NCBI RefSeq assembly: GCF_013407185.1
Contig: NZ_CP026995.1
Location: 434,841-498,840 of the forward strand
DNA: 64,000 bases
Reading direction: 5' to 3'
DNA from: Nitrosopumilus ureiphilus
GTDB lineage: Archaea > Thermoproteota > Nitrososphaeria > Nitrososphaerales > Nitrosopumilaceae
The translations under genes and the position numbers were made by a program. A model generated the notes under the pieces. The model ran no database searches. It had not been told where the DNA came from and saw only the letters and a program-made list of their open reading frames with translations. This document shows, piece after piece, positions 38,991-48,637 of the stretch. How positions within the stretch are numbered: the first letter of the stretch is position 1; every line of letters begins with the position of its first letter.

Positions 38991-39131
38991 TTGAAGAAAG
39001 AAAAGATCAGCGTGTCTATTGATGCAGAACTTATGGAATGGATGGATGATCAAATTACAAAAAGGAGATTCTCTAGTCGTTCTCACTGTATCTTGTATTG
39101 TATGGATTATGTTAAAAATCAAGAAAAATAA
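38991..39131 (+). CDS. Ribbon-helix-helix (CopG/Arc-type) regulator
   Basis: 46 aa, TTG start. KKEKISVSIDAELMEWMDDQ gives the beta strand and first helix, and RRFSSRSHCILYCMDYV the second helix with the usual FxSRSH turn. Missed by length cut-offs. It probably binds the direct repeat directly upstream and controls itself and possibly the divergent gene at 38736. Confidence 0.75.
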   Translation: MKKEKISVSIDAELMEWMDDQITKRRFSSRSHCILYCMDYVKNQEK

Positions 39132-39211
39132 GTCTGAAATCCCCCCCGATATTGTGAATTTATTTTTAAAAAATAGAATCCTGAGCAAACCTCAACAGAC
39201 TCGAACTATGT

Positions 39212-39282
39212 TTGGTGGATCGTGAAGGATTTGAACTCATAATCTTGTATCGGATTATGAATCATTCCTATATGCCAATACA
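39212..39282 (-). pseudogene. Decayed tRNA-Met(CAT)-like sequence
   Basis: On the minus strand it reads TTCATAATCC (anticodon loop with CAT), then a T-arm-like GAGTTCAAATCC and GATCCACCA at the 3' end. The anticodon and T stems are mostly mismatched, so it is not a functional tRNA. It could be a 3' tRNA fragment left by an integrating element. It overlaps the 3' end of the gene at 39255. A 7-bp hairpin CATAATC/GATTATG is also present. Confidence 0.4.
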
Positions 39283-39782
39283 AAACCCATGCCACCACAC
39301 ATCACTCCTAATGCTAAAAGTGCAATAAACCCACCAATTGGCTCTATGAATGAATCCATGATGGCAGGATATTTTGGTCCAAGTTTTCCTTCAGTGAAAA
39401 TGGTAAGCAATCCAGTACCTGCCAGCCCCGCATAAGTCATGATCATCATGGAACCTGCACCACCAATATTCATTCCAATCAAGTGGATTGCAGCTAACAC
39501 ATTTGATTTTCTTGAGAATTTTTTCTTTAATGTGATTTCAAGATGGCTATAAAACAATGCAGTTACTGCTATAGCAATTATTATAATGAGATGAAATATT
39601 ATTCCCAAAAAGAACCATTTTGCAGTACCTTCAAAAGATAATGACAGATATTGTATAATGTTAATATCGCTATTTGTTACTTGGATTGCTACGATGACGA
39701 TAGCCATAACTGTAATCATTGCACCCTGAATTATAGCTGCAATTATGAATCGATCAACCCATCTAAGTTCAGAAATTTTCAT
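39255..39782 (-). CDS. Four-helix membrane protein of unknown function
   Basis: 175 aa with about four membrane helices (FIIAAIIQGAMITVMAIVIV; WFFLGIIFHLIIIIAIAVTA; LIGMNIGGAGSMMIMTYAGL; GGFIALLALGVMCGGMGFVL). Conserved-looking glycines in GMNIGGAGSMMIM. No cofactor motif. Its last codons lie in the decayed tRNA-like sequence. Confidence 0.65.
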   Translation of the reverse strand: MKISELRWVDRFIIAAIIQGAMITVMAIVIVAIQVTNSDINIIQYLSLSFEGTAKWFFLGIIFHLIIIIAIAVTALFYSHLEITLKKKFSRKSNVLAAIHLIGMNIGGAGSMMIMTYAGLAGTGLLTIFTEGKLGPKYPAIMDSFIEPIGGFIALLALGVMCGGMGFVLAYRNDS

Positions 39783-39893
39783 TTGTCTGTTTCAATATGT
39801 GATTTGGAGGTATTGATGGTTTTAGTTGAATTTGTTTGATTATTTTCGTAATATCAAAATCAAGTCAGTTATGAATTCTCAGAAATTTTTGGA

Positions 39894-41705
39894 TTAGTGT
39901 GAATGTCTGTGAAAGATAGAATAGAGCCCAACTATAACAGATATGCCCATTGTAGCAAATGAAATAATTATCTCAAAAGCAATGCTTGGAACAGATGTTA
40001 GATTATTATATGAAATTTTTTCACTTTCGTGAAACTTTTTCAATATGTTGTTAAATGAATTACTTGATATTTCATTATTCATCCATTTTGAAGTAGAGTG
40101 TAATACTTGCTCGGAAATGGTAATTTCTGTGTATATCGTAGGTAATGCTTCTACAATGTATGGTCCATTCCAAGGGCAGCCATCAATCAAACATTGAGGG
40201 TTAACATTATTTGCACAAATGTTGATGGGCGATATCGTGGTTCCAAAATCATTAATGATCTTGAGGCATAAAATTTGATCTAGTTTTATGTTATTAATGC
40301 ATCCATCATAAAATGCAGTAATGAAACCAGTCTTGGCCAATGAAAGAGAACTAGACGTATCTAACGATGAAATTTTTTGCACCCCATCACAGAAATTTAA
40401 CTCTTTTTTATAGTCGAATACATATACTGCTCCTTCAGGATGACTTCCACCTCCTGATAGCGGTGCACCGACAATTATCTTTCCGTCATTTGAAGAAGAT
40501 ACGGATTGACCAAAATAAACACGCAGAAAAGGGGTCTCCTTGAACGATAAGGTATGTTGAAGGTGACCTGTGCTATTGTAAACATGAACAAACCCCATAT
40601 TCATTGCATCGGGATCGATATTTGTTGGATCACCGACAACTATGTTGCCATCCAATGTAGTTGCAACTGATTGACCGAATAAGTCATTAAAATTTCGTAA
40701 TGGTTGTCGTAAATATTGTATACTGCGAATATCCTCATCAAAAATAATAACTCTATCTAACTCGTCATTGGTCATGTAGGGATTTCCAAAAACTATCTTC
40801 CCATCCGTGGTAGATGCAACTGATTGACCAAACCTATTAGAATAATCAATCACAGGTGGAAATAAAACAGTGTTATCAAATATTTCATGGATCAATACGC
40901 CAGTAGTGCCATTAAAGAGATAGACAGCACCACCATAGATATTTACCGCAGGATAATGTGTGTTTGGAGCACCTACGATGATATTTCCATCAGGAGTAGA
41001 TGCTACAGAGTATCCAAAAAGAGATGATGGTAAACCGGAATTATTTGGGTTAAGGTTTGGGATTTCCAAGATCATATTTCCATTAATGTCAAATACATAA
41101 ACTGCACCTGCAAAAGAATCATCATAATCAGCACTGGGAGATCCCACAATGATATTTCCATCAGGAGTAGATGCTACAGAGTATCCAAAATTTGTTTGAG
41201 ACAACGGGTGTTCAATTGGATTGGGACTGATGATTTCGATAACCATACCTCGTGCAAAATCAAATACATAAACTGCACCTGCAAGGTTATGAATAGAAAC
41301 TTTACCTGGATCACCAACAATGATATTTCCATCAGGAGTAGATGCTACAGAGTATCCAAATTGATCGGGCATATTTGTTGGAGGTGCTGGGTTAGGTATT
41401 GCAGAAACAAGATCACCATTAATACCATCAAATACAAAGACGTGATTTGTATAATCTGGAATAACTGTTGACATATAGCCTCCAACTATTATCTTGCCGT
41501 CATTTGAAGAAGCTACGGATTGACCAAAATGACTATAGTCGGCAATATTTTGATTTGTGATGGGATTTGATATTTTAAATAAGAAATCACCTTGATCTGC
41601 AAAGGAACTTGATAATCCAAATAATGATGAAAATAGAAGTAAAACCATAAAAGTAAAAATTCTTGTACACTGCTTTGATGCAAACTCATAAGAACTCAAT
41701 TTCAT
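39894..41705 (-). CDS. Seven-bladed FG-GAP-like propeller surface protein
   Basis: 603 aa. Signal peptide at about 1-36, then seven repeats of FGxSVASTxDGNIIVGxP followed by GAVYVFD, spaced about 55-60 residues apart, which fits a seven-bladed beta-propeller of the integrin-alpha FG-GAP type. Then a Cys-rich domain (CDGVQK; CINNIKLDQILC; CLIDGCPWNG) and one C-terminal membrane helix with a short basic tail. Predicted outside the cell and anchored. Possible adhesion or ligand-binding role (inference). Confidence 0.75.
   Translation of the reverse strand: MKLSSYEFASKQCTRIFTFMVLLLFSSLFGLSSSFADQGDFLFKISNPITNQNIADYSHFGQSVASSNDGKIIVGGYMSTVIPDYTNHVFVFDGINGDLVSAIPNPAPPTNMPDQFGYSVASTPDGNIIVGDPGKVSIHNLAGAVYVFDFARGMVIEIISPNPIEHPLSQTNFGYSVASTPDGNIIVGSPSADYDDSFAGAVYVFDINGNMILEIPNLNPNNSGLPSSLFGYSVASTPDGNIIVGAPNTHYPAVNIYGGAVYLFNGTTGVLIHEIFDNTVLFPPVIDYSNRFGQSVASTTDGKIVFGNPYMTNDELDRVIIFDEDIRSIQYLRQPLRNFNDLFGQSVATTLDGNIVVGDPTNIDPDAMNMGFVHVYNSTGHLQHTLSFKETPFLRVYFGQSVSSSNDGKIIVGAPLSGGGSHPEGAVYVFDYKKELNFCDGVQKISSLDTSSSLSLAKTGFITAFYDGCINNIKLDQILCLKIINDFGTTISPINICANNVNPQCLIDGCPWNGPYIVEALPTIYTEITISEQVLHSTSKWMNNEISSNSFNNILKKFHESEKISYNNLTSVPSIAFEIIISFATMGISVIVGLYSIFHRHSH
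40975..41363 (-). repeat. Near-identical ~43-bp repeats encoding propeller blades
   Basis: Copies start near 40975, 41149 and 41320 and encode FGYSVASTPDGNIIVG. They differ at very few bases, while the rest of each blade has diverged, suggesting gene conversion or strong selection on this strand. Confidence 0.75.
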
Positions 41706-42040
41706 ACATCATCAATAATAATATAAGATAAAAATTTTCATGTGTAAAAAATTTTCATGTAAAACAGATTTTGTTTTCAAAAAAGATCCTAAATCAATTA
41801 AAGATGTGCTTTATGTATTAGATACAAATCTCAACAGGTCCGCAAACCCAAACTTTATAGTAATTTTTGTAATAAATGGAAACGAATATCCTGTCTCATC
41901 AAATTCCGCCAAGATGAAATTAATCATTTCCTTTTTTTATACCGTCTGTGTTTTATCAAAAATGATTCCAGTTCATAATATGTAGTTAGATTGTAAAAAT
42001 TCTCAAATTTTATCTAACATGAAAACCATGTACTACTAGT

Positions 42041-43192
42041 ATGAAAATATTTGTTCTGTCTGTTGTTATCTTACTTGCTTTTGAAGTAATTATAGAAGCT
42101 GAAGCATATGGAAATTATCGATCACAATCAGAATACGAATATTTGCTTGTTGAATCCGACAAAGAATCTTACATGATTGGTGATGTGATAAACATTACAG
42201 GTACAGTAGAGAAATATCATGAAAACGAATCCATCCAAATAATTCTTTACTCTCCTACTGGAAGAATAGCGTCACTACTAAAAACGGATGTTAGTCCAGA
42301 GAAAAATTTTTCTATATTTATTGATACTGTTAATTTCGAAAAAATTGGTGTATATAATGTTAAATCTAATTTTGGACGATATTCAGAAGTCACAGAAATT
42401 AGCTTTACAATTAATCCATATGAGAAATCTAATCCTAATCAAAATATTGGTGATGATACTAACGCTTTTACAACAAGATCTGAATCCCAAGAACTTATTC
42501 CTCAATGGTTCCATAATATCTCAAAATGGTGGTCATTGAGTCAAATATCTAATTCTGATTTTGTTGAAGGAATAAAATATCTTATAAAACACGAAATAAT
42601 TAATTTTCCAAAAGACGTATCCTTAGAAAGTAAAGAATCTCCAAGAGACCTAGCAGAGATTAGAAAAAATGTCAGATGGTGGAGTCAAGGGATTTTATCT
42701 GATACTGAATTCTTAAAGTCCATTCAATATTTACTCCATGTGGAAGCACCAGAAGATCCTGCCACGCTTTTTCTAACTCCTAAAAGTTATCGTTTTGGTC
42801 AACCTGTTACAGTTACCCTTGTTGATCCTGATTTGAATTTAAATAGTGACTTGATAGACATTTACCGAGTAGTTGATGATCCCAATTCTCCATTTGTGGA
42901 TACTGTTGGATCTAGCAGTGGTGGCATCTTGTTAGAAATTAGAATCAAAGATATCCGATATCAAAGATGTACCATTAATGATGTGGAGCATGGTGGATTA
43001 GCATCTACTGGATTTGTATTGATTGAGACGGGTACAAGTACTGGAATATTTGAGGGAATTTTCAAGGTACCGACTAAAATTTGTAACAAATTAGGTAATG
43101 AATTAATTTCTTCTGCAGGTGGAAGTATCAGTCTTCGCTATCATGATTTTAGAGATTCTTTTGGCCAACCAAACATTCAGCAAACACAATAA
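42041..43192 (+). CDS. Secreted multidomain protein (MG2-like, W-WW repeats, beta domain)
   Basis: 383 aa. Signal peptide to about residue 23 (EAEAYG), MG2-like domain (VESDKESYMIGDVINITGTV), then two copies of a thaumarchaeal motif (IPQWFHNISKWWSLSQISNS plus FVEGIKYLIKHEII; IRKNVRWWSQGILSDTEF plus LKSIQYLL). The C-terminal domain (GQPVTVTLVDPDLNLNSDLI, ETGTSTGIFEGIFKV) is like that of the protein at 19462. Extracellular, function unknown. Confidence 0.75.
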   Translation: MKIFVLSVVILLAFEVIIEAEAYGNYRSQSEYEYLLVESDKESYMIGDVINITGTVEKYHENESIQIILYSPTGRIASLLKTDVSPEKNFSIFIDTVNFEKIGVYNVKSNFGRYSEVTEISFTINPYEKSNPNQNIGDDTNAFTTRSESQELIPQWFHNISKWWSLSQISNSDFVEGIKYLIKHEIINFPKDVSLESKESPRDLAEIRKNVRWWSQGILSDTEFLKSIQYLLHVEAPEDPATLFLTPKSYRFGQPVTVTLVDPDLNLNSDLIDIYRVVDDPNSPFVDTVGSSSGGILLEIRIKDIRYQRCTINDVEHGGLASTGFVLIETGTSTGIFEGIFKVPTKICNKLGNELISSAGGSISLRYHDFRDSFGQPNIQQTQ

Positions 43193-43237
43193 TCTAGATT
43201 TCGTAATCTTACTATAGATTAAGTAATTTCTGCAAAG

Positions 43238-44038
43238 TTAATCTAGTTTAATTGCAATAGGAATATCTAACTCGAATTCATGAATTCCATCTGTTGCAAA
43301 AATATTATACATTTTGCCTCCGACTAAATCCGGAATCTGCCATAGTGTATTCAAATATCCCCTGTCTGTAGTTTTTGTTCTTATTGATTCTTCAAAATCT
43401 TGACTAGAAACTGTAATTTCTACATTGTGCAGTCTATGCCATCCAAATCCTTCTATTGCCAAGTATCTTTGATTTGATATTTCATCGGGTATGATATTTA
43501 ATCCAACATCAAAGTCTGCAAGTATTTTTTCTGCTACCAACCCTTTTTTTCTGTCATCTGCACGTTTTTCAAAAATCTCTTGCTGTATTTGTTCTGACAC
43601 TGCCCAATTTCTTTCTCTGAATTTCCCAATGTTTTCTACGTTGACACAAGCTGGTAACAGGTTTGTTGTTTTGATTATGATGGTTTGACCTTCTTTGCAT
43701 TCAATTAGTTCAAGTGCAATTCCTAGTTTGTATTGTCCAAGTGGGCTTGATTTGTTGAAAGGAGTTATTTTTTTGCTTGTAATATCATGACATGGTCTGT
43801 CTCCACATATTTTGGTGTCTCTAGTTGAGAGGCCTTTTTGTGATCTTTGCTCGTCAATCTCAGAACATATCTTATCCCCGCAAACTTTGTGGGAATTGAT
43901 TACCTTGTATTTTTTAAATTCAACTGATCCATCAGCTTGTGTTTCAGAAATTAGATATGACATACTAATTAATCCAATAGTTAGAAAAATTACTAAATAC
44001 TTCCAGTTTATTTTGTGATCTTTGATCAATTCCTTCAA
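43238..44038 (-). CDS. Secreted or membrane-anchored Cys-pair protein
   Basis: 266 aa. N-terminal membrane helix (YLVIFLTIGLISMSYLI), then KVCGDKICSEIDEQRSQKG and KICGDRPCHDITSKK, a duplicated CGDxxC motif, followed by an Ig-like C-terminal domain (LHNVEITVSSQDFEESIRTK). The protein at 48389 has a similar CDGNLC. The CxxxxC pairs may form disulfides or bind metal outside the cell. Confidence 0.65.
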   Translation of the reverse strand: MKELIKDHKINWKYLVIFLTIGLISMSYLISETQADGSVEFKKYKVINSHKVCGDKICSEIDEQRSQKGLSTRDTKICGDRPCHDITSKKITPFNKSSPLGQYKLGIALELIECKEGQTIIIKTTNLLPACVNVENIGKFRERNWAVSEQIQQEIFEKRADDRKKGLVAEKILADFDVGLNIIPDEISNQRYLAIEGFGWHRLHNVEITVSSQDFEESIRTKTTDRGYLNTLWQIPDLVGGKMYNIFATDGIHEFELDIPIAIKLD

Positions 44039-44227
44039 GTTTAATGGTCTTTAAATTAATTAAACTCTATTCCATTTCTTGGGTTTAAAATTTTTATTCC
44101 CTTATGATTCTATGGCTATTTGACCTTTTTTTCATAATCTTATACCAGATTATCAGGGACCATTTTACGCACAAAGAGGAGGGTTTCTTTTTTTACTGAT
44201 TGCCGATATGCTCATTCACTCTCAATT

Positions 44228-44279
44228 TACCCACTGTACTTTCAAATTATTAATCTAAAATTATATTTTACAGTGGGTA
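44228..44279. repeat. 11-bp perfect inverted repeat downstream of the Fic gene
   Basis: TACCCACTGTA (44228-44238) and TACAGTGGGTA (44269-44279) with a 30-nt AT-rich spacer, 16 nt beyond the Fic stop. The same CCCACTG/CAGTGGG core is repeated at the gene's other end. Could be a terminator hairpin or an element end. Confidence 0.8.
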
Positions 44280-44294
44280 CTGTATTTTGACCAA

Positions 44295-45185
44295 TTACAA
44301 ATACTGCTTGTTTGCCTTGATATAATATTTCATAAACCATTTTAGAAAATGAATCTCATCATGATTCAACTGTGATTTCTCTAGTGATTTGAAATATGCA
44401 CGTCGGTCATTATTTTTGATAAGCATTAGAGGACATCCATGTGAAAATAAAATATAATTCATAATCAGTCTTGATATCCTACCATTGCCATCACCAAACG
44501 GATGAATTGAGACAAACTTGTAATGTGCCAATGCTGCAAGTTCTACAAAGTTTTTTCCATCATACTTGTTTAGCCATGAAAAACACTCTTGCAGTCTCTT
44601 TGGAATCTTTGTAACTGTTGCAAATTCGATTTTACTGTTTGTGGTTACTCCTACTCTGTATGATCTAATGCCTCCTGCCTCACCAATTTTTGTCTGACCA
44701 AAGATTTCCTTGTGCCATTGTAGTATTGTTTTCTTTGTAATCTTTGTAACTTTGGATGTGACCAATCTCATAAACAAATCATAGTGTTTTGCAGTCTCAA
44801 TGGAATCTATCTGTGATTTTCTTGCAGGAGTTACTCCGTATATCAACAAGTCTTTGGTGTCAGACTCTGTGAGACTAGAGCCTTCCATTCTTTGCGTGTT
44901 GTATGTAAATGATATCCCAAAGCTCTCAAAGTCTTTTTGTTTTATTGATGCTGGTTTTTTCCTTGTCTCTTTTTTATAGTTAACAGATATTGTATTTACT
45001 TGCTTGTCCCACTCTTCATCATAAAATTCCAACATGAATTCTTTTTTGATATTCTCAATATTCTGAGGGATTGACAATCCAAGATACTTTTCTTTTTGTC
45101 TGTTCCCTGTTGTGTGTTTAAGGTAAAGGTATTTTTTACCATTTTTCTCCCTGGTAATCACTGAGACCACGATTTTAGTACCCAC
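44295..45185 (-). CDS. Fic-domain protein (predicted AMP-transferase)
   Basis: 296 aa, GTG start lying inside the upstream CAGTGGG repeat. The Fic active site HPFGDGNGR is complete at residues 228-236, with the catalytic His and the ATP-binding GNGR. TQRMEG at 97-102 fits the inhibitory [S/T]xxxE[G/N] helix placed N-terminal to the Fic core (class II), so the enzyme is probably self-inhibited. Fic enzymes usually transfer AMP to target proteins. No antitoxin gene is adjacent. Probably acquired or mobile (inference from the flanking repeats). Confidence 0.88.
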   Translation of the reverse strand: MGTKIVVSVITREKNGKKYLYLKHTTGNRQKEKYLGLSIPQNIENIKKEFMLEFYDEEWDKQVNTISVNYKKETRKKPASIKQKDFESFGISFTYNTQRMEGSSLTESDTKDLLIYGVTPARKSQIDSIETAKHYDLFMRLVTSKVTKITKKTILQWHKEIFGQTKIGEAGGIRSYRVGVTTNSKIEFATVTKIPKRLQECFSWLNKYDGKNFVELAALAHYKFVSIHPFGDGNGRISRLIMNYILFSHGCPLMLIKNNDRRAYFKSLEKSQLNHDEIHFLKWFMKYYIKANKQYL

Positions 45186-45228
45186 TGCTTTTTAATAAAT
45201 ATTATTTATTATTTAATAAAACAGTGGG
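45181..45228. repeat. Inverted repeat CCCACTG/CAGTGGG at the 5' end of the Fic gene
   Basis: CCCACTG (45181-45187) and CAGTGGG (45222-45228) with an AT-rich interior of TTTAATAAA-type arms. The left arm holds the Fic start codon; the AT-rich part probably holds the TATA box. Confidence 0.75.
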
Positions 45229-45321
45229 GAAATAGGCATAATTCTATCATTTTATCTCTTGACTGATTATATTAAACAATGCTTTCAGATATGTTCCTTA
45301 AAATCACCTAATATCAAAATC

Positions 45322-46076
45322 ATGGATTCCTTTAGAAATAATCAGTCTGAAAATCTATTGTGAGACATTCCTATTTTATTTTTTGAAACTATAACAATTA
45401 ACACCAACAAGGAACAATTTGCGGGAGGGGATACTATAGAAATTAATGGTAGTGCTGAAAATGGAAGTGTCGGTGACTGTTGCACTTGAAATTAAAATTC
45501 AGACGGAGAAACAATTCTGATTAGAACTGTTACTTTGGGAGATGCTGGTTCATTTTATCTTAAATTCAAAATTCCTGAATCTGGAAAGGCAGGAAGATAT
45601 GATATTGTTGCAAATTCCAAATAAGGTGAGCAAACTATAACTGAAACTAAAACAATCACTCAAAGTAATTCGGCATCGGAATCTCCTGATGCGATTTCAT
45701 CTAAAGGTAGAGGCTGTCTAATTGCTACTGCAACATATGGCTCAGAGATGGCATCTAAAGTCCAGCAACTCAGAGAAATCAGAGATCACAAACTACTGCA
45801 AACAGGATCTGGTACTTCCTTTATAAGTTCGTTTAATGATCTCTATTATTCATTCTCCACGATAATATCTGATTATGAAAGAGAAAATCCACTATTCAAA
45901 GAAGCAGTCAAACTTGTAATCACGCCTATGATAAGTTCGCTTTTTATATTGAACTATGTTGACATGGAATCTGATGAATCCGTATTGGGAATGGGTTTTC
46001 TTTGATTGTACTTAATGTGGGAATGTATTTTGCAGCACCTGCAATTATAATTTACAAAATCCAAAAGCGATTCTAA
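45322..46076 (+). pseudogene. Broken CFI-box secreted protein gene
   Basis: One reading frame from the ATG at 45322 has stops at about 45361, 45487, 45493 and 45622, and the last 20 residues (SLIVLNVGMYFAAPAIIIYK) need a frame change near 46001. The protein remains clearly similar to that at 2-1030: GRGCLIATATYGSEMASKVQ, YERENPLFKEAVKLVITPMI. An MG2-like domain precedes it. A decayed paralogue. Confidence 0.85.
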
Positions 46077-46231
46077 GATCTGAAAAATATGCTTCGAAAT
46101 ATTGTAGGGAAAAGGTCTTCAGGAAAAAATCTTTATGCTGCTTTGATTTTAGGTATTTTGAAATGAATATAATTCGTGAGAATTATGTCCTATTGAGCAG
46201 GAATAAATAGAATACATAACGCACTCTTTTC

Positions 46232-46741
46232 ATGTTTGGCAAGAAACCTGTTCTAAAAGAAGGGGTTCAAGTTTTCTCCATCAAAAAGAATGGCGACTTC
46301 AACGACTTTATCTTCGGTGTAGTCACTGGAGTAGACGGACGTAAAGTAGGAATTAATGGCGTCATTGTAAATCCAATTGGTTTGAAAAACAAGATTGCCC
46401 AAGGAAAAACAGGAGAGCGCTCCCGAGAAATACTAGAGCATCCAACTCCGGACAATGTTGTATTGGCCCTTGTGTATAGAGTAGAGCATGAGAATTTTAC
46501 TGGAATATTAGATCTTGATGTTGACAAATGTGATATCTTGCCACCAAAAATTTATGCAATGCTTGATGGATGGATTCGCGAATCTTTACCTGAATTTATC
46601 AACACAGTTCTGTCATTGCCACAGGGAACAGAACGAGATGAGGCAAAGCGAGTACTACGAAACAGAATGGATACTCTGATTGACAAAAATCTCAAACGAA
46701 CACTATATGCTGTTTGCCGAAGTCTGAAAATTTTAAACTAG
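46232..46741 (+). CDS. Conserved hypothetical protein, 169 aa
   Basis: Soluble protein. A beta-rich N-terminus (VFSIKKNGDFNDFIFGVVTG, VGINGVIVNPIGLKNKI) is followed by a helical C-terminus (LPEFINTVLSLPQGTERDEA, LIDKNLKRTLYAVCRSL). No family recognised. A TATA-like element lies near 46205. Confidence 0.6.
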   Translation: MFGKKPVLKEGVQVFSIKKNGDFNDFIFGVVTGVDGRKVGINGVIVNPIGLKNKIAQGKTGERSREILEHPTPDNVVLALVYRVEHENFTGILDLDVDKCDILPPKIYAMLDGWIRESLPEFINTVLSLPQGTERDEAKRVLRNRMDTLIDKNLKRTLYAVCRSLKILN

Positions 46742-46947
46742 ATTTATAAATTCTAGGCGTGAGTTCGGGTTCTGTTTCGTCATCGGTTGTTTTCTCCGTG
46801 TTACTTTTCAGTTGCTGATTTTTTAATGGATACCATCTAATTCCATCAGAAGCATGTGGAATTGAAGTCAAAGGAGATAACAAATGGAAAACCTTGATTC
46901 AAAACGCCTGTAGATAATCATAAAAATACCTAGTTACAACCCAAACC

Positions 46948-47124
46948 ATGGCAAAAAAATTCGCTTGTGGGGATGTAGTTGATGGTTGTGCATGGTCAAC
47001 TACTGCAAAAGATGAAAATGAATTGTTTGAACAAATATCAGAACATGCAAAAAATGTTCATAATATGACAGACATTCCAGACGAAGTTATTCAAAAGGTC
47101 AAATCTAAAATTCAAGAAGTGTGA
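46948..47124 (+). CDS. DUF1059-family small protein, 58 aa
   Basis: FACGDVVDGCAWSTTAKDEN, EQISEHAKNVHNM and DEVIQKVKSKIQEV match the DUF1059 pattern (CxDxxxGCxxxxxxxxExEL...HAxxxHG). The two Cys and two His may bind metal. Function unknown in the family. A second member lies at 51669. Confidence 0.85.
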   Translation: MAKKFACGDVVDGCAWSTTAKDENELFEQISEHAKNVHNMTDIPDEVIQKVKSKIQEV

Positions 47125-47225
47125 TTTCAGCAACCAAAAAGTAACAGAGATAAGAAAAACCTAAGAGGTAACAGAACCTGAGTTCGCCATAGTTTTATAT
47201 TATGCCCTAAGGAAATCTCGATACA

Positions 47226-47522
47226 ATGGAATATGTTTACGCTGCTTTACTTCTTCACAAACTGGACAAAGAAGTTAACGAAGCAAACCTCACATCAGTT
47301 GTTAAAGCATCTGGTGCCGAAGTTAATGATGCTCAAGTTAAAGCACTAGTGGCAGCCTTGGCCGATGTTAACATCGATGAGGCAGTCAAAGCCGCACCTG
47401 TAGCAGTTGCAGCAGCCGCCCCAGCAGAGGCAGCCGGTGAAGCAAAGAAAGAAGAAGCACCTAAAGACGAAGGTAAAACCGAAGAAGCAGCCATGGAAGG
47501 ATTATCCTCACTATTTGGCTAA
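47226..47522 (+). CDS. rpl12: Ribosomal protein P1 (archaeal L12)
   Basis: 98 aa. Dimerisation helices ([20 protein letters not shown]), Ala-rich hinge and acidic tail ending EGLSSLFG, the part that recruits translation GTPases. In most archaea it follows L11-L1-P0; here P0 and L1 are about 15 kb away on the other strand, so the operon is broken up. Confidence 0.95.
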
Positions 47523-47617
47523 ACAATACTTTTTTCAATTAAATTTTTAATCTTTATTCTTTCAAACTCGATCTTTTTCACTAATCTTAATTAGTAATAT
47601 TTCTGCCATTCTATTGA

Positions 47618-48250
47618 TTGGTGGATTTCTCTTTTCCAATAGATGGCTTTATCAGTATTTTAGATTACTTGGGGACAATTGCATTTGCAGTAACTGGAGC
47701 ATCAAAAGCAATCTCTCACAAAGCTGATGTCTTTGGAATTATTGTTTTGGCTACCGTAGTTGGAGTCGGTGGTGGAGTTACACGTGATGTAATCTTTGGA
47801 CGATTCCCAACAGCTTTCTCTGATCCAATCTATGTTACTCTAACTGTCATTACAGGAGTTGTGATGTTTTTTTTATTTACAAAAATGAAAAAGCAGATGA
47901 ATGTCTGGTTAATTTTTGATGCAGTAGGCTTGGGTGTGTTTTCTATACTAGGTGCATCCATTGCATACCAAATAGTGGGTTTGAATTTTCTTCCAATGCT
48001 ATTTGGTGGAATGATTACTGCAATTGGAGGTGGGATTCTCAGAGATGTCTTTGTTCGAGAAATTCCTATTGTCTTTGTAAAGGAAGTATATGCAATTGCA
48101 TCAATTATTGGAATTGTAATTTTTTATGTTACTTTGTCATCTGGTGTAGAGATTCAGATTGCATCAATTATTGGAATTGTAGCTGCTACTGGAATTAGAC
48201 TGCTTGCAATGAAGTTTAATTGGAATTTGCCCAAAGTACGAGAAGCATAA
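47618..48250 (+). CDS. TRIC-family (UPF0126/YicG) cation channel protein
   Basis: 210 aa, TTG (or GTG at 47621) start. Seven predicted helices arranged as a duplicated unit; both units carry the glycine-arginine-aspartate signature (VVGVGGGVTRDVIFGRFP, ITAIGGGILRDVFVREIP). Prokaryotic members form trimeric monovalent cation channels. Stand-alone gene. Confidence 0.88.
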   Translation: MVDFSFPIDGFISILDYLGTIAFAVTGASKAISHKADVFGIIVLATVVGVGGGVTRDVIFGRFPTAFSDPIYVTLTVITGVVMFFLFTKMKKQMNVWLIFDAVGLGVFSILGASIAYQIVGLNFLPMLFGGMITAIGGGILRDVFVREIPIVFVKEVYAIASIIGIVIFYVTLSSGVEIQIASIIGIVAATGIRLLAMKFNWNLPKVREA

Positions 48251-48388
48251 GTAAAATTTAGAGTGAATTTAATGCTCATCTGTTTGGACCCATCATAAAA
48301 TCTGGAATTTAATAATGAATAGTTTTGTTTGGTCTTTGATGGAGTGATTTTTCTATAGTTCATAGGTCTTGATTTTGAATTTAATTGA

Positions 48389-48637
48389 TCATGAATTTGG
48401 GATTAACACTAAAAAAATTTTTTCAAATTCAAACAATGAATGTTCTAAATTTTTGATATTGTGACATAAATTACCATCACAATTAATCTGAATATCTGTA
48501 GACTCTTGTTTTATCTTTGTAGGTCTAGGGATATTTGCTATCTTCATTGTGTGCGTTCCTACAACTGCAAGAGATACTGACATCAAAATTAGTGGCAATA
48601 AGACTAACAATGAAATTTCTCTAAACATTTTTTTCAT
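48389..48637 (-). CDS. Small exported protein, 82 aa
   Basis: N-terminal membrane helix/signal (ISLLVLLPLILMSVSLAVVG), then a hydrophilic part with INCDGNLCHNIKNLEHS, recalling the CGDxxC motif of the protein at 43238. The start lies 35 nt from the palindrome at 48673, with a TTTAATATCC TATA-like element between. Confidence 0.6.
   Translation of the reverse strand: MKKMFREISLLVLLPLILMSVSLAVVGTHTMKIANIPRPTKIKQESTDIQINCDGNLCHNIKNLEHSLFEFEKIFLVLIPNS

Follow-up and report, generated by a model that had tools for sequence, protein, structure and literature searches.

A fic gene of the archaeon Nitrosopumilus ureiphilus, located in the 64,000-nucleotide stretch of DNA analysed here (hereafter the window), is preceded by a palindrome that, judging from its sequence, very probably serves as a transcription operator and probably allows the Fic protein to repress its own gene. 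The feature is not confined to this genome: an inverted repeat 5' of the start, at a level reached by no more than 5 of 100 dinucleotide shuffles, was found for 65 of 77 scored Fic genes encoding the same N-terminal domain, spread over Nitrososphaeria, DPANN and further archaea.

In its longest form, the fic reading frame covers positions 44295-45185 of the window on the minus strand. Based on homology, the likelier start is a GTG at 45168-45170, which aligns with the family's MVS... beginning and gives a gene of 44295-45170. The earlier note had placed the start codon inside a palindrome arm; a GTG at 45183-45185 within that arm does open the longest frame, but homology favours the GTG outside it, so the entire upstream palindrome lies 5' of the gene. 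The encoded protein belongs to the Fic/DOC family (PF02661, E = 1.1e-19, 71.5 bits against a Pfam cut-off of 24) and displays the HxFx(D/E)GNGRxxR signature of the Fic domain as HPFGDGNGRISR (44469-44504, minus strand; identified by sequence, Pfam and alignment). N-terminal to the Fic core is TQRMEG (44880-44897, minus strand; identified by sequence and alignment), which fits the class II inhibitory motif (S/T)xxxE(G/N), and of which E96 and G97 are near-invariant in 47 aligned members. The corresponding alignment (A1) used 47 of 48 references, leaving out L051, a distant member with no palindrome. AlphaFold (21 sequences) predicted the whole protein at a mean pLDDT of 92.8, with strands at residues 4-10, 13-22 and 25-32, a long helix at 39-72 and then the Fic core, whose helices end the structure (last helix 273-287 of 292). 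Using Pfam, we found no HTH family in the protein. Its top profile and fold matches were FICD, a eukaryotic enzyme, and BT_2513 (PDB 6i7h, 3cuc), both of which have the same catalytic core as the archaeal Fic; the profile matches start at about position 59-66 and therefore do not cover the N-terminal domain. The PADLOC models SoFic (E = 2.3e-21) and PDC-S04 (E = 4.8e-29) also match the Fic core, making an antiviral defence role for the window protein conceivable.

The upstream palindrome (45181-45228), our proposed Fic operator, has perfect arms at 45181-45187 and 45222-45228, a score of 11.5 that was matched in 0 of 100 shuffles and a dyad near 45204.5, 34 nt 5' of the homology-based start codon. 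Its AT-rich spacer (45188-45221, minus strand) occupies the position of the family's TATA-like promoter and scored 1.0 on a family spacer model built from 53 loci with the window left out, compared to a leave-one-out median of 6.9 for the other members (10-90% range, -3.0 to 13.4). A second copy (44228-44279) lies beyond the other end of the gene, 15 nt from the fic stop codon, with perfect 11-bp arms at 44228-44238 and 44269-44279 and a spacing equal to that of the upstream palindrome (34 nt from 7-mer to 7-mer). The earlier note had pointed out the 11-bp repeat past the stop, the 7-bp repeat with the same core at the gene start and the outermost 8-mers (CCCACTGT at 44230-44237 and ACAGTGGG at 45221-45228), all of which are present as it described. 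It had also proposed a genome-wide search for the repeat. Taken singly, the 7-mer is no rarity in the window (5 observed, mean of 2.99 expected). The paired arms CCCACTG-N{24,50}-CAGTGGG, by contrast, occur at only two sites in the single-contig genome of 2.17 Mb, namely the two ends of this gene. With as many as 3 mismatches allowed, TACCCACTGT-N32-ACAGTGGGTA matched the same two sites and no others, and a control search with the pattern reversed gave 0 matches in the 2.17 Mb.

To place the upstream repeat in the context of the family, we scored two sets of loci. In the first set, 42 of 52 distinct loci met the threshold of 5 in 100 shuffles and 35 met that of 1 in 100; in the second set, collected by family profile from named genomes and IMG/VR, the corresponding numbers were 23 and 22 of 25 loci. 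The less stringent test was failed by the remaining 12 of 77 loci (10 from the first set and 2 from the second), and the relatives counted are not independent of one another. The 52-locus set was compiled without L054 (upstream DNA identical to L007), L010 (truncated) and L059 (no start) and includes the truncated or broken genes L023, L027, L061 and L070. The second set takes in DPANN archaea, a Methanoperedens, Euryarchaeota, a Lokiarchaeota MAG, one MAG labelled Parcubacteria and one viral contig (L153). Two further alignments combined the window with 20 of the 25 second-set loci (A2; L097, L117, L119, L127 and L153 left out) and with 18 loci (A3), and in both the window row starts one codon before the proposed start. 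Named loci of the family include Thaumarchaeota, Nitrososphaerales and DPANN archaea, and protein searches gave matches in 30 of 120 relatives and 36 of 398 genomes of the phylum, with up to 5 per genome. A score of at least 9 was reached at 42 of 52 family starts compared to 11 of 156 other ORF starts at the same loci, and the best two of these 11 share, by coordinates, their palindrome with a divergent fic gene. This score was also attained by 11 of 107 Fic genes that have no such N-terminal domain.

Several individual loci showed variations on this arrangement. Upstream of position 1486 in L007, the operator is accompanied by an extra left half-site, with ACATACTATA occurring again 12 nt further out, and the Fic gene of an Aenigmatarchaeota MAG (L119, 1054-1179) has two operator copies 77 bp apart. 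Broken fic copies were observed in relatives (L059, L061, L070 and L072), and the disrupted gene of L070 keeps a high-scoring operator. One locus (L035, G392:C23) contains two convergent, adjoining Fic reading frames at a contig end. Finally, an archaeal Fic type without the N-terminal domain, represented upstream of position 1417 in L050 (G122) and in L053 (G252), has its own inverted repeat 5' of the start (scores 14.2 and 9.2, arms around TATCCGATA), which in L050 is common to a divergent ORF. Based on sequence, this type is possibly another self-repressing Fic.

The position of the palindrome relative to the gene was highly uniform. For the 63 of 77 loci with a score of at least 9, the median dyad position relative to the start codon was -34.5 nt (IQR, -35.2 to -34.0), and 55 dyads fell between -37 and -32.5; dyad centres were searched from -42 to -22 and start codons picked by homology. 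We aligned 54 of the 63 loci by their dyads, excluding L003, L004, L007 and L027 (out of register) and five with a dyad outside -37 to -32.5. Half-sites were centred about 20-21 nt on each side of the dyad, typically TTACCCCTACA ... TGTAGGGGTAA, and the spacer was A-rich over one stretch and had TTTATAAA as its majority sequence at +6 to +13 relative to the dyad; TTTAWWAW was matched at 7 or more of 8 positions between -45 and -12 in 47 of the 54. This layout resembles the archaeal BRE/TATA arrangement, located about 25 nt 5' of the start codon as in a leaderless message. With a TATA-like sequence between the half-sites, the palindrome would thus bracket the core promoter, its right arm following the TATA box and preceding the start codon.

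The same layout bears on whether the repeats instead act as RNA. Inverted repeats at both ends of a gene could form a 5' leader structure and a 3' terminator or stabiliser, but we consider such hairpins highly improbable here. Because the TATA-like box is inside the loop, a transcript beginning about 25 nt downstream would start near the start codon and the stem would be outside it. In addition, the loops are long (34 nt in the window), and none of the 62 other loci scanned had a matching palindrome 3' of the gene.

We then compared the arms themselves, which vary in sequence by lineage. TACCCACTGT is present in L033 and, nearly, in the window; other arms include ACATACTATA (L005, L006 and L007), TTACCCAGGAA (L012), TACCCCTACA (L037, L058 and L075), GTTATCACTACA (L015), TTACCATTACA (L046 and L153), TGTCACTACAA (L022) and TTACAGTGACA (L017). 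Four paralogues in a single genome, G039 (L002, L054, L056 and L060), have four different arm sequences, and the second fic gene of the window genome (L055) has a near but distinct operator, with ACCCAGTGT as its left arm and a spacing one base shorter. Across 58 of the 63 loci (L003, L004, L007 and L027, out of register, and L070, a broken copy, were excluded), half-site distance was correlated with distance in the N-terminal domain (Mantel r = 0.668) and in the Fic domain (r = 0.562). In partial tests, the correlation with the N-terminal domain given the Fic domain was 0.470 (0 of 2000 permutations) compared to 0.192 for the converse (13 of 2000). Single N-terminal columns were no more strongly associated with the arms than Fic-domain columns (mean r = 0.180 versus 0.183), and the Mantel result may therefore partly reflect shared descent. 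That the arms appear to track the N-terminal domain more closely than they do the Fic domain is supportive, not decisive.

In pattern searches of genomes, the operator was private to fic. The pattern ACCCCTACA-N{26,38}-TGTAGGGGT was present in 2 of 398 genomes of the phylum, each time directly 5' of a family fic gene, and the only exact match to CCCACTGT-N{26,38}-ACAGTGGG among 120 relatives was the window's own downstream copy. An operator-first search of IMG/VR was not enriched in Fic, with a family gene on 0 of 11 and 1 of 2 stretches (1 of 13 in all). Of the other 12 stretches, six (IMG/VR contigs L268-L270 and L272-L274) share a virtually identical 48-nt hairpin, in which the arms are ACCCCTACA/TGTAGGGGT and the spacer is itself palindromic in part, and no family Fic gene was found on the stretches examined.

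These comparisons also bear on which protein would occupy the site. Archaeal regulators often bind TATA-overlapping palindromes, and the repeat could be the operator of another transcription factor that tracks fic, for example a host regulator, with Fic itself not binding. We regard this as unlikely, given that the site is private to the fic locus, that its arms differ among the G039 paralogues and follow the Fic N-terminal domain in sequence and that no neighbour gene recurs.

Within the Fic protein, the proposed DNA-binding part is the N-terminal domain (residues 1-38; 45057-45170, minus strand), a predicted three-stranded beta sheet delineated by alignment, structural models, charge and fold comparison. 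Its 38 positions have a mean net charge of +6.7, and per-residue basicity exceeds that of the rest of the protein in 58 of 58 members. Modelled alone using AlphaFold, the first 73 residues formed a three-stranded sheet and a helix (mean pLDDT 84.9). Among the chains compared with this N-terminal model (mf9bb8c12a4c0), the top similarity was to the anti-CRISPR protein AcrIF24 (Z = 5.2), above the weak neighbours found among arm-type integrase DNA-binding domains (3jtz, Z = 3.9; 3rmp, Z = 3.8; 52 residues, rmsd 2.8-2.9 angstrom); an AP2-DNA complex had a Z of 3.9 and aligned only at an rmsd of 7.2, and no chain in the comparison reached a Z of 8. Foldseek with the domain returned nothing significant (best E = 0.57), and the Pfam family Arm-DNA-bind_5 was matched below its cut-off (E = 0.083 in 1 of 19 members scanned and E = 1.3 in the whole protein). 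Taken with the operator, the charge and topology of the domain suggest that it contacts DNA.

Based on these features, we propose a mechanism in which a Fic dimer, or a higher oligomer, would engage the operator with one N-terminal beta-sheet domain per half-site. Lying about 42 bp apart (approximately four helical turns), the half-sites would flank the BRE/TATA region, with the right one between the TATA box and the start codon, and an occupied operator would obstruct assembly of the archaeal transcription machinery. Blocking assembly in this way would keep fic expression low with no need of an antitoxin partner, and a second brake, on catalysis, would come from the class II inhibitory motif. 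On straight DNA the half-sites are about 140 angstrom apart, a long span for a dimer if the DNA is not bent. Binding by Fic, repression through that binding, the oligomeric state and the relieving signal are all elements that we infer. Extended to the whole archaeal family, the proposal would describe widespread, self-governing toxins made of a single fic gene, each gene repressed through a small non-HTH beta-sheet domain of its own product, with half-sites diversifying so that paralogues of the same cell use different operators; we offer this broader picture tentatively, leaning slightly against it.

The idea in the earlier note that no separate antitoxin is required fits the neighbourhoods of the family genes. 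After clustering neighbour ORFs of at least 45 aa (E <= 1e-6), no family was present in more than 2 of 63 loci, and fic therefore looks solitary, with the proviso that such clustering would miss smaller or very divergent partners. In Phd-Doc, autoregulation proceeds via a palindrome-binding partner. Phd-Doc and FicT-FicA modules likewise contain a Fic-fold enzyme, but a separate antitoxin inhibits it or binds DNA, whereas the archaeal family has its inhibitory motif in cis and no recurring partner; the adjacent antitoxin gene typical of a two-gene Fic toxin-antitoxin system was not seen among the 63 loci at this ORF length.

We next considered the location of the gene. The fic gene is accessory: in G059, G403 and G039, a homologue (76-79% identical) is distant from the core gene that lies to the right of fic in the window (46232-46741, present in 84 of 90 genomes of the genus) or is on another contig. 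When window positions 40000-48500 were compared to ten stretches from relatives using blastn, three Fic loci shared the gene together with the upstream operator (from 44295 or 44309 to 45243), and seven stretches around the core gene had no match left of window position 46111, so that no clean 1-kb empty site emerged from them. Of the Fic loci, L260 had an extra match of 66% identity to 45703-46057, and the L261 operator also matched the window's downstream palindrome (44227-44281). Judged from these alignments, the operator travels with the gene. Elsewhere, a distant family fic (L259, G068:C66; 34% identical) is separated by about 2 kb from the core gene that also neighbours the window fic, and the region between fic and the core gene in the window (45384-46005) appears to be a decayed-gene remnant, with in-frame stops seen by eye and a CLIATATYGSEMASKVQQLREIRD stretch.

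An accessory gene that is differently placed in the relatives compared, and whose DNA similarity with other Fic loci stops near the outer edge of the upstream palindrome, might be a one-gene mobile element with the palindromes as its ends, as the earlier note had suggested. This interpretation did not hold up well, and we consider it very improbable. A scan for second sites across 63 family loci (mean length 3.6 kb, some incomplete) found one only in the window and in L119, and a matching downstream palindrome was present at the window locus alone; matching repeats at both ends, as expected of other copies of a transposable element, were not seen among the 63. The arms differ between relatives, changing with the protein lineage, the 1-kb interval between the palindromes contains no further ORF of at least 80 aa, no target-site duplication was seen by eye and the upstream palindrome encloses a TATA-like sequence. 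The note's other suggestion, a doubly controlled gene, found support at the front, where the palindrome looks like a promoter operator common to most of the family.

What the downstream palindrome does in this one genome is a separate question. By sequence it would be a second binding site, possibly used for looping. As an auxiliary operator, it would allow Fic bound at both sites to loop the 951 bp between the dyads and tighten repression, an arrangement compatible with autorepression that we see as possible but doubtful. The downstream copy fits the TACCCACTGT half-site better than the upstream arms do (0 versus 2 mismatches), has the same spacing and lacks promoter features in its spacer; it is, however, present in one genome only and could be what is left of a duplicate promoter that was lost. 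Two other candidate explanations were rejected. In a six-frame hmmsearch of 39001-47500 for the remains of a second fic, nothing but the known gene passed the inclusion threshold. A role as promoter of the left neighbour (43238-44038, minus strand), whose listed start is about 190 nt from the palindrome, or of an antisense transcript found no support in the family spacer model, on which the spacer scored -14.0 on the minus strand and -8.4 on the plus strand, no better than shuffles (mean -8.2).

The closest known parallel is CccR of Yersinia pseudotuberculosis. According to the available text of its description, CccR is a class II Fic protein with a C-terminal HTH that represses itself, binding as a dimer to AGATAATCAT-N26-ATGATAATCT near the -35/-10 boxes (PMC9755527). 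The likeness to the archaeal family is by analogy, consisting of a class II Fic protein and of self-repression, putative in the archaeal case, on a promoter palindrome with a long spacer (10-bp arms and a 26-bp spacer in CccR). The C-terminal HTH, secretion by a type VI system and the bacterial -35/-10 promoter are, as far as that text goes, features of CccR only, while the archaeal family has an N-terminal beta-sheet domain and a palindrome around a TATA-like region. Since the HTH DNA-binding domain is absent, we do not count the archaeal family as CccR-type, although on present evidence it would work like CccR. More broadly, Fic-HTH fusions were noted, and expression control proposed, in the available part of the Fido paper (PMC2686095), and among 11 sponge-associated Thaumarchaeota, 7 are reported to have FIC domains, with none found in the free-living ones compared (PMC7848895, available text). 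Class II accounts for about 80% of Fic proteins, with function and control described there as almost unknown (PMC9755527, available text). In the titles and abstract beginnings returned by our literature search, we recognised no report of self-repression by archaeal Fic proteins, and CccR was the sole worked example of Fic self-repression.

Together, these observations suggest a second, differently built version of self-repressing Fic in archaea. For this archaeal family, an operator and a probable DNA-binding domain can now be named, and the operator layout helps to find such fic genes and to locate their start codons. The natural pairs of operator and protein, including those of the four G039 paralogues, constitute a panel for direct tests of specificity. 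If the proposed mechanism is true, self-repression in archaea would be convergent with that of bacterial HTH-Fic proteins and the catalytic state of the enzyme may couple to promoter occupancy, while in the N. ureiphilus genome the second operator 3' of the gene would add a repression loop.
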